From: Meiothermus cerbereus DSM 11376
Lineage (GTDB): Bacteria > Deinococcota > Deinococci > Deinococcales > Thermaceae
Assembly (NCBI RefSeq): GCF_000620065.1
Contig: NZ_JHVI01000017.1
Span: forward strand, 1-64,000
Direction: 5' to 3'
Length of the DNA: 64,000 bases
The notes under the pieces were generated by a model, which saw nothing but the letters and a program-made list of their open reading frames with translations, searched no databases and was not told the origin of the DNA. A program made the translations under genes and the position numbers. How positions within the stretch are numbered: position 1 is the stretch's first letter; every line of letters begins with the position of its first letter. This document shows, in pieces, positions 25,983 to 28,307 of this stretch.

Positions 25983-26957
25983 TTACGAGGGGCTCGAGGT
26001 CTCTTGAAGGGTCAGCACATAATCGATCCAGGCAGGCTGTTTGACGAAGCCCAGCGCCTCGTTGATGGCGAGCATGGCCCGGTTGCCCGTTTCGTTGCCG
26101 GTGCGGATTTCTTTTGTGCCATAGGCTTGGGCGAAGCGGATCGCCTTCAATTTGAGCGCCAGGGCCAGGCCTTTGCGGCGGTAGGCCCGGCGGGTGCCGG
26201 TGAGGCCGGTTTGCAGGTAGTCGCCATCGGTTTTCCAGAGGGTGCTCAGGGCTACATACTGGCCGGTGGATTTGTCTATGGCTACAAAATGACCTTCGGG
26301 CAGGTAGTAGCGGCTCTCGAACACCCACTTGCAGTAGTCCTCGAAGCTCACCTCGCTCATCTCCTCGGGGCGGGGTACGTCCAGGCGGGCCTCGAGCCAG
26401 AGGTCGTAGAGCTTTTGCCGGTGCGCTTTGTCGGCCTCGAGCTCCTTCAAGCTCTTTAGCTCAAACCCCGCTGCTTCCACCGCCTCTATCCGGCCCGCCC
26501 AGGGGCTGAAGTCGAAGCTCTGCACGTTCAGGCGCGACTCCCAGTAGCGCATCTTCTCGGCAAAGCCCAGCTTTTGGAGCCAGGCCAGGGCCTGGGGCTG
26601 ATCCTCGCGGGTGCTGCTCAGAATCGAGATGGGGTGGTGGGGCTTTAGGGCGCTTAACACCTGCCGGTACAGCGCCTTGCCAATGCCCTGGCTGCGGAAC
26701 GCAGGCTTCACCGTGACCCAGACCCCAAACTTCTGCGGGTGGTACATGCCCTCGAACTGGGTGTAGTCGCCCACACCCACCACCTGGCCTTCTACCTCGG
26801 CCACAAAGCGGCCCCACTTAATCTGGGGGGCGTGGTCGTCGTGCTCGCGCAGGCTGGCTTCGCTGTGCGCTTCGTCGGGCCAGGCGGTTTTCAGCACCTC
26901 GGCAAGGGCCGGGTAGTCGCGGTCTTCGAAGGGTCGGATGACAAGGTTGAAAGACAT
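25983..26957 (-). CDS. Double-GNAT N-acetyltransferase, paralogue 1
   Basis: 324 residues with two GNAT-like halves. The N half contains FRSQGIGKALYRQVLSAL (acetyl-CoA binding R/Q-x-x-G-x-G/A) near 88-105; the C half contains YRRKGLALALKLKAIRFAQ near 250-268 followed by MLAINEALGFV. Two-domain GNATs of this size include mycothiol-synthase-like proteins, but the substrate is unknown. GAGGAG ribosome site. It is convergent with the CHR genes and paralogous to the gene at 27159-28106, with which it shares nearly the same C-terminal motif order. Confidence 0.8.
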   Translation of the reverse strand: MSFNLVIRPFEDRDYPALAEVLKTAWPDEAHSEASLREHDDHAPQIKWGRFVAEVEGQVVGVGDYTQFEGMYHPQKFGVWVTVKPAFRSQGIGKALYRQVLSALKPHHPISILSSTREDQPQALAWLQKLGFAEKMRYWESRLNVQSFDFSPWAGRIEAVEAAGFELKSLKELEADKAHRQKLYDLWLEARLDVPRPEEMSEVSFEDYCKWVFESRYYLPEGHFVAIDKSTGQYVALSTLWKTDGDYLQTGLTGTRRAYRRKGLALALKLKAIRFAQAYGTKEIRTGNETGNRAMLAINEALGFVKQPAWIDYVLTLQETSSPS

Positions 26958-26989: not shown

Positions 26990-27187
26990 GTGAGCAAGAA
27001 GACCCGCCAAAAGCTGGCCGCCATCGTGACCACGGTGGTGTTTGGCTTTTTGTTGTTCAAGCTGCTCGAGCGCACCTTCGTGCTGATCTGGGTCAACACC
27101 CCCTGGTGGGGTGCGCTCTTGATGTTGATTGTGCTGTTTTTGCTCATCGACTACCTCATCAGCCGGGCCTTTGGGGTACGGGACTGA
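26990..27187 (+). CDS. Small two-helix membrane protein between the GNAT paralogues
   Basis: 65 residues, GTG start, six bases after a -10-like TATCCT. Hydrophobic segments near 10-24 (LAAIVTTVVFGFLLF) and 40-56 (WGALLMLIVLFLLIDYL). Basic N terminus suggests it faces the cytoplasm. Its last 29 bases overlap the 3' end of the convergent second GNAT gene. No family recognised. Confidence 0.6.
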   Translation: MSKKTRQKLAAIVTTVVFGFLLFKLLERTFVLIWVNTPWWGALLMLIVLFLLIDYLISRAFGVRD

Positions 27188-28106
27188 GGCGTAAAAACAC
27201 CGTGGCCGGCTCCTTGACAAAGCCCATCGCCTCGTTGATGGCCAGCATGGGCCGGTTGGCCTGGTGGTTGGAGGTGCGGATGTACCGCGCCCCATAGGCT
27301 TTGGCGAAGGCTGCGGCCCGCAGCTTGAGAGCCAGCGCCAGGCCCTTGCGGCGGTGGCTTTTGCGCACCCCGGTGAGGCCGGTTTGCAGGGTCTGGGGGC
27401 GATGGGACTTGAAAAGCATACTCACCCCCACCAGCCGCTCGCCTTCCAGGGCTACAAAGAACCCCTCGGGCAACAGGTTCGGGTCTTCCAGGGTGCGCTT
27501 CTGCCAGACCTCAAAGGGCCAGGGGGTGATGGGCTCGGCTGCTGGCACATCGCCCAGGAGCTCGATTTCCAGCTCGTATAAGGCCCGCAGGAAGCCCTCC
27601 TCCTGCCAGGGCAACTCGCTCAGGGAGGCCAGCGCAATGCCAGGCGGCAAGGGGCGCACCAGGGGGGTGGGGTCGAAGGCGGCCAGATCCAGCACCGACG
27701 GCCAGCGGCGCTCCACCTCGGTGAAGCCCTGCTCGAGCCAAAAGCGGTACTCCGGCCAGTTTTCCCTGACCTGTGCCCAAAGCTCCTGGGGCTGGTGGGG
27801 AGTCAGCCGTTCCAGCAGGAAGTCCCAGAGCTGCGCCTGCAGGTTCTGGGCTTCGGGGCGCAGGTAGTACTGCACCTCGAGGGCCCCCGGCTTGGGGTCG
27901 TAGTAGGGGGTGGCGTACTCCAGCATCCCCACCACCTGACCATTTTGTTCGACCAAGAAGCGCTCGAGCAGGTCGCCTTCTGCGCGGGTCTGATCCAGGT
28001 GCTTTAGCCCGGCGAGGTTCAGGGGGCTCTCGGGGTGGGCGGCCTGGCGAATGGAAGCATAGGCCTGGTAGTGCTCCAGAGTGAACTCAAAGGGGTGTAT
28101 GCGCAT
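27159..28106 (-). CDS. Double-GNAT N-acetyltransferase, paralogue 2, attenuator-controlled
   Basis: 315 residues. Same build as the neighbour: N half with EQNGQVVGMLEYATPYY near 52-68, C half with HRRKGLALALKLRAAAFAK near 254-272 and MLAINEAMGFV. The C-terminal 65 residues are very similar to paralogue 1 while the N halves have diverged. The ATG has a GGAG four bases upstream, itself just after a T-run of an intrinsic terminator, so expression should depend on transcription passing that terminator. A leader ORF lies further upstream. A longer frame to 28460 runs through the leader region and is rejected. Confidence 0.82.
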   Translation of the reverse strand: MRIHPFEFTLEHYQAYASIRQAAHPESPLNLAGLKHLDQTRAEGDLLERFLVEQNGQVVGMLEYATPYYDPKPGALEVQYYLRPEAQNLQAQLWDFLLERLTPHQPQELWAQVRENWPEYRFWLEQGFTEVERRWPSVLDLAAFDPTPLVRPLPPGIALASLSELPWQEEGFLRALYELEIELLGDVPAAEPITPWPFEVWQKRTLEDPNLLPEGFFVALEGERLVGVSMLFKSHRPQTLQTGLTGVRKSHRRKGLALALKLRAAAFAKAYGARYIRTSNHQANRPMLAINEAMGFVKEPATVFLRLSPVPQRPG

Positions 28107-28114
28107 AGGGCTCC

Positions 28115-28148
28115 AAAAAAAGCGGGGGGCATTCGGTTTGCCCCCGCC
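28115..28148 (-). terminator. Intrinsic terminator/attenuator in the GNAT leader
   Basis: Minus strand: GCGGGGGCA (28147-28139), seven-base loop, TGCCCCCCGC (28131-28122; one bulged C), then seven T (28121-28115). It ends only four bases before the GGAG of the GNAT gene, so it cannot serve any gene other than as an attenuator or as terminator of the leader transcript. Confidence 0.85.
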
Positions 28149-28164
28149 TGGATTAAAGGCGCTT

Positions 28165-28236
28165 TTATGGCATTCGTGTACCCATGGGGCGGCAAACCAC
28201 CGATGTTGCGGGGATGGACTGAAAATGAACGGGCAT
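28165..28236 (-). CDS. 23-residue leader peptide ahead of the GNAT gene
   Basis: ATG-to-TAA frame of 24 codons preceded by AAGGAGGTG, the strongest Shine-Dalgarno in the neighbourhood, at seven bases spacing. The peptide starts MPVHFQSIPATS and ends RPMGTRMP; it has no run of one amino acid. Codons 13-17 contain GGTTTGCCgCCC (28198-28187), which can pair with GGGGGCAAACC (28145-28135), that is, with the 5' arm of the terminator. This is the layout of a translation-dependent attenuator. Expression of the peptide itself is inferred only from sequence. Confidence 0.6.
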   Translation of the reverse strand: MPVHFQSIPATSVVCRPMGTRMP

Positions 28237-28277
28237 CGTAGGTTCACCTCCTTGGTGCTGCTTGCGCGACTGCTGGG

Positions 28278-28307
28278 AGTGTAGCACGGGGTACGGGAGC
28301 TTGGCAA
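28278..28307 (-). promoter_or_regulatory. Promoter of the leader-peptide/GNAT transcript
   Basis: On the minus strand TTGCCA (28307-28302) and TACACT (28283-28278) are 18 bases apart. Transcription would start near 28271, giving a leader of about 165 bases before the GNAT ATG. Confidence 0.6.

Follow-up and report, generated by a model that had tools for sequence, protein, structure and literature searches.

The window analyzed here, i.e., a 64,000-nt stretch of Meiothermus cerbereus DSM 11376, carries on its minus strand a gene for a GNAT-family acetyltransferase that is preceded by a short leader (Table 1). The promoter, the Shine-Dalgarno (SD) sequence, the 23-codon open reading frame (ORF), and the intrinsic terminator that an earlier note had described were all found in place. 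The TG in front of the −10 hexamer makes this an extended −10 promoter, and GTGCTA of the −10 element is invariant across the 10 leaders aligned first; within 4 kb, three promoter-like sites were found versus 0.5 expected from shuffling. One detail of the note was wrong: the T-run does not stop four bases short of the GNAT SD but abuts it. A small hydrophobic protein encoded on the opposite strand separates the second GNAT gene of the window from the first, and a similar protein lies between two GNAT genes in several relatives.

Table 1. Features of the leader region in the window and of related loci named in the text
Feature	Position or locus	Strand	Description
Promoter	28278–28307	−	−35 TTGCCA (28307–28302), 18-nt spacer, −10 TACACT (28283–28278); extended −10 (TGC-TACACT)
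Predicted transcription start	~28271	−	
SD of leader ORF	28245–28253	−	AAGGAGGTG; strong SD
Arm 1	28241–28252	−	AGGAGGTGAACC; SD of leader ORF; pairs with arm 2 (anti-antiterminator), as seen in the MFE fold
Leader ORF	28165–28236	−	23 codons; peptide MPVHFQSIPATSVVCRPMGTRMP; stop TAA (28167–28165)
Arm 2	28187–28198	−	GGTTTGCCGCCC; within codons 12–17; pairs with arm 1 or arm 3
Arm 3	28135–28146	−	CGGGGGCAAACC; terminator 5′ arm and loop; pairs with arm 2 (antiterminator) or arm 4 (terminator)
Antiterminator pairing	28198–28187 with 28146–28135	−	GGTTTGCCgCCC with CGGGGGCAAACC
Intrinsic terminator	28115–28147	−	GC-rich stem, 28147–28140 with arm 4 (28130–28122); seven-T run (28121–28115)
SD of GNAT gene	28111–28114	−	GGAG; T-run (ends 28115) directly 5′
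GNAT-family acetyltransferase	27159–28106	−	315 aa, double-GNAT type; controlled gene
Small hydrophobic protein	26990–27187	+	65 aa
Second GNAT gene	25983–26957		
Ktedonobacterial leader loci	L170, L181, L182, L184, L187, L188; L235–L250, L265		
Genes after leader-preceded kinases	L160:4325–5493, L157:3965–5906, L181:3854–5641		GNAT, AadA_C-type or other nucleotidyltransferase-like, methyltransferase; resemble a drug-modification set

The earlier note had also proposed that a segment of the leader codons pairs alternatively with the 5′ arm of the terminator. This pairing proved real: arms 2 and 3 can form an antiterminator of −22 to −23.5 kcal/mol, and only 0.4–0.7% of random synonymous-codon draws encoding the same peptide gave one equally strong. 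We further identified an element absent from that note, i.e., an anti-antiterminator in which the leader's own SD (arm 1) pairs with arm 2, more strongly in the window than under the synonymous-codon null (p = 0.012). The folding energy of the whole region in the window is unremarkable (z −0.27), and the case therefore rests on comparison rather than on stability. Apart from a truncated fragment at the edge of the searched stretch, Rfam gave no match with an E-value up to 1.

R1, a sequence model for the leader, detected homologous leaders in 15 Thermaceae genomes, of which 12 are among the 18 genomes of the genus and three belong to two further genera; the same model found none in the 27 genomes of genus g4 and no second strong copy in the window's own genome. 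Conservation of the ORF and pairing in close relatives, on which the earlier note had partly staked its proposal, is thus mostly kept. Most genomes of the genus carry a GNAT ortholog; those of G017, G013, and G004 (L007, L009, and L010) have no leader and carry a promoter-like sequence directly in front, which makes them natural comparators for switch loss. Weak R1 matches in other genera or families (L108–L111, L123, and L124) revealed no matching leader when their sequences were inspected, and a degenerate pattern, AGGAGGN{45,75}TNTGYCNNCCNGC, was dropped because its matches across the family were mostly due to chance.

The SD, start codon, and frame are kept in all leaders, with homologous ORFs in 14 genomes besides the window's, and indels in the leader ORF occur only in multiples of three. 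The peptides are variable, but a V-V-C-x-x-A-V-like segment recurs in them at a fixed spacing from the stop codon; its Cys is replaced by Arg in G007 and by Ser in G019, and the residue itself is therefore not essential. TnaC-like arrest at a conserved C-terminal Pro-stop motif was rejected, with the last residue being P, A, S, or T and this Cys not being kept. Constraint on the peptide is weak (pN/pS of 0.66–0.76), and pS is 0.39 in the C-terminal part of the ORF versus 0.58 in the N-terminal part. In all 14 leaders analyzed, the stop codon lies 20 nt past the end of arm 2 and 18–22 nt before arm 3. The elements are not intact in every leader: G005 has lost the terminator and G016 has a degraded one, the T-runs of G009, G020, and G021 are poor, and the antiterminator is weak in G009, with imperfect versions in G007 and G001.

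Across the alignment, the terminator helix is paired in 88% of cells and displays a covariation of 0.262 versus 0.147 after shuffling (0/500), while the antiterminator is paired in 82.7% of cells versus 38–54% when slid, with a covariation of 0.135 versus 0.104 (21/500). Judged on the whole alignment, covariation of the terminator helix is clear, and support for the antiterminator is moderate. G019 is a highly informative case: its arm 2 (GGTATCCCTTCG) pairs at 12 of 12 positions with arm 3 (CGGGGGGATACC), and at the one position that arm 3 needs for pairing with arm 2 as well as with arm 4, arms 2, 3, and 4 have changed together, which preserves both exclusive pairings. Summed over 14 leaders, the arm 1:2 pairing amounts to −232 kcal/mol (null means, −135 to −171) and the arm 2:3 pairing to −290 kcal/mol (null means, −195 to −220). 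Both exceed four nulls, the synonymous-codon and permutation nulls among them (z −4.8 to −9.3 overall, −4.9 to −9.3 for arm 1:2, and −4.8 to −6.7 with one genome per clade), in genomes that are related by shared ancestry and hence not independent. The codon choice of arm 2 is therefore tuned to both partners. Matching of arms 2 and 3 within a genome beats random cross-genome matching only at the ~4–5% level, mainly via G019. A local hairpin within the ORF indicated by RNAalifold was not adopted, as it was not evident by eye in G019–G021.

The leader thus combines an SD-led short ORF between promoter and gene, an intrinsic terminator, and an ORF segment that can form a terminator-excluding antiterminator, which are the features of the attenuator class, and its anti-antiterminator includes the start region of the upstream ORF (uORF), as in the vmlR type. 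We consider it highly probable that this is a real, conserved, ribosome-dependent transcription attenuator of vmlR logic with three alternative structures. The attenuator layout put forward in the earlier note is accordingly well supported by the conserved leader, the better-than-null pairing, and the compensatory change. At the level of sequence and comparison, we could show the ORF, its SD, the terminator, and the two competing pairings together with their conservation.

In the proposed mechanism, a ribosome normally translating the leader would cover arm 2, or the arm 1:2 pairing would re-form behind it; arm 3 would thereby be left free to form the terminator with arm 4, and transcription would stop at ~28115. 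A ribosome stalled at the start or at early codons (approximately codons 4–8) would instead cover arm 1 and expose arm 2, which could then capture arm 3 before arm 4 emerges, so that the GNAT gene would be transcribed. The dependence of read-through on ribosome position was modelled with transcripts ending after arm 3 and before arm 4 and with a simple ribosome footprint. The antiterminator probability in this model was at least 0.49 at some early ribosome position in 14 of 14 leaders and 0–0.04 in all 14 when the P site was at codon −12, −9, or −6 from the stop, and it varied with no ribosome or with a ribosome at the stop; the ribosome-free model gave the antiterminator in several leaders, including that of the window, which leaves the untranslated state uncertain. 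The model thus predicts the antiterminator with a ribosome on approximately codons 4–8 and the terminator with the C-terminal half covered, and it fits induction by an early stall. When full transcripts were folded at equilibrium, the terminator prevailed against the antiterminator in almost every leader, and the decision must therefore fall during transcription (i.e., in the kinetic window before arm 4), as in known attenuators.

The RNA layout described above would equally serve a classical amino-acid-sensing attenuator, in which a scarce aminoacyl-tRNA stalls the leader ribosome, and some of the N-terminal blocks do contain His, Cys, or Phe (e.g., SHF and SHC). However, the absence of an amino-acid run from the peptide, which the earlier note had pointed out, extends to all 15 leader peptides, which neither carry the single-residue run of the trp or his type nor have any residue common to all, and the controlled genes encode GNATs and kinases rather than biosynthetic enzymes. 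We regard this reading as very unlikely, and only slightly better odds can be given to the view of the 23-codon ORF as an independent small gene, with the hairpin as its terminator, GNAT expression by read-through, and no switch. A strong terminator, an ordinary whole-region fold, and a mildly conserved peptide would all suit such a gene, but it would not account for two alternative pairings of one codon segment that exceed the synonymous and permutation nulls, for the three-way compensatory change in G019, or for the 18–22-nt spacing kept between the stop codon and arm 3.

The least probable of the readings we weighed makes the ORF incidental to a ligand riboswitch or protein-binding leader. 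The third positions of the ORF are as conserved as an RNA element would lead one to expect, given the lower pS of the C-terminal part, but against this stand the lack of an Rfam match, the lack of a conserved aptamer-like core outside the arms, and the retention of SD, start, and frame in all leaders with indels in threes.

For the ribosome-dependent attenuator that we favor, the stall would be caused by translation inhibitors or other ribosome stress, with translation inhibitors as the leading guess. The drug signal suggested in the earlier note is plausible from the enzyme-like neighbors and known analogs, and we would put the chances of drug induction at roughly even, as a reasonable guess.

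The earlier note had named GNAT as the regulated gene, which holds for the window, although GNAT is a secondary client of the leader. In G002, G007, G015, G020, and G021, the leader is followed in one array by a RIO1-like kinase (PF01163) and then by double-GNAT genes. The kinase is retained with an internal deletion in G014, reduced to a C-terminal remnant before GNAT in G011 and G012, and lost in the window's genome and several others, so that the leader now lies directly before GNAT. The ancestral target is the RIO1-like kinase followed by double-GNAT genes. In G020 (C3:1274578–1284959; L083), approximately nine double-GNAT genes are arrayed downstream of leader and kinase. The GNAT protein matches only generic acetyltransferase models, its best solved relative being 2wpw (ORF14). 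We infer that the proteins encoded by the controlled genes modify either a compound or a component of the ribosome.

RIO1-like kinases are preceded by short ORFs beyond Thermaceae as well. In other Deinococci, SD-led short ORFs of unrelated sequence precede these kinases without clear terminators. Trueperaceae-type leaders (L145, L146, L147, L149, and L151; L171, L173, and L174) share the core HRRxETxPA*, and in L146 an ORF segment (CCGAGACCGA) is complementary to the downstream TCGGTCTCGG. Other Deinococcales (L130, L131, and L133–L136) have an additional short ORF, led by an SD of its own (AGGAGT..GTG type), that shares part of the leader ORF's sequence in a different frame and whose stop codon touches or overlaps the start of the kinase gene; this arrangement suggests a translation-coupling variant. 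A kinase subgroup in Ktedonobacteria (Chloroflexota) has an unrelated leader of 20–28 codons, followed in most loci by two intrinsic terminators with T-runs. Leader codons there are complementary to terminator 5′ arms, most strongly in L248 (TGCATTGCGACTCC with GGGTCGCAATGC) and L236 (CCGAGACGGCC with GGCCATCTCG), where 0 of 300 synonymous draws were as strong in either case; in most other Ktedonobacterial leaders the complementarity was not significant individually. None of the six loci of PA4780-like kinases examined in Proteobacteria had an SD-led short ORF upstream.

Outside Thermaceae, the neighbors of leader-preceded kinases include GNATs, an AadA_C-domain nucleotidyltransferase, other nucleotidyltransferase-like genes, and methyltransferases, a mix that suggests small-molecule modification. 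In eukaryotes and archaea, RIO1 proteins take part in the maturation of ribosomes, and ribosome-related roles are therefore also possible. We tentatively propose, at somewhat less than even odds, that control by uORFs is common to RIO1-like kinases of at least two phyla (Deinococcota and Chloroflexota), a theme that has gone unrecognized, and in which the kinase and a varying GNAT, nucleotidyltransferase, or methyltransferase would form a stall-induced stress cassette that modifies ribosome-targeting compounds or acts on the ribosome.

The mechanism itself is of a known kind; the novelty lies in the controlled targets and the breadth. In the Bacillus subtilis vmlR leader, a short uORF lies inside an anti-antiterminator hairpin, followed by a competing antiterminator and an intrinsic terminator, and a stalled ribosome favors read-through, a three-structure logic equal to that of the Meiothermus leader (PMC9226507). 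However, vmlR belongs to another phylum, is unrelated in sequence to the Meiothermus-type leader (whose ORF has 23–28 codons), and controls an ABC-F protein rather than a RIO1-like kinase and double GNATs; its induction by antibiotics has been shown, whereas that of the Meiothermus leader is a conjecture. The tlrB (yxjB) gene of B. subtilis likewise has a leader peptide with an intrinsic terminator that is read through when a drug stalls the ribosome, but the stall at its C-terminal RYR motif blocks the terminator directly, with no overlapping antiterminator identified (PMC6851288). In the E. coli toiL-topAI-yjhQ-yjhP operon, a uORF that senses ribosome-targeting antibiotics precedes the operon genes, as the Meiothermus uORF does (PMC12121999). 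Unlike the Meiothermus leader with its intrinsic terminator, toiL hides a ribosome-binding site and involves Rho-dependent termination, and its operon consists of toxin-antitoxin genes. The gene mix is similar, with YjhQ being of the GNAT type and YjhP of the methyltransferase type.

In the open-access literature, we found no leader described upstream of RIO1-like kinases or in Meiothermus, and no assigned role for either the bacterial RIO1-like kinases or the double-GNAT proteins. Our results suggest that these acetyltransferase and kinase genes belong to an unrecognized family of genes that is switched on by disturbed protein synthesis. If so, both protein families would gain a testable context, i.e., induction by ribosome stalling, a thermophile would supply a ready-made reporter of translation stress, and two phyla with unrelated leader sequences and similar logic would offer comparative targets for learning what drugs or states cause stalling on each leader.
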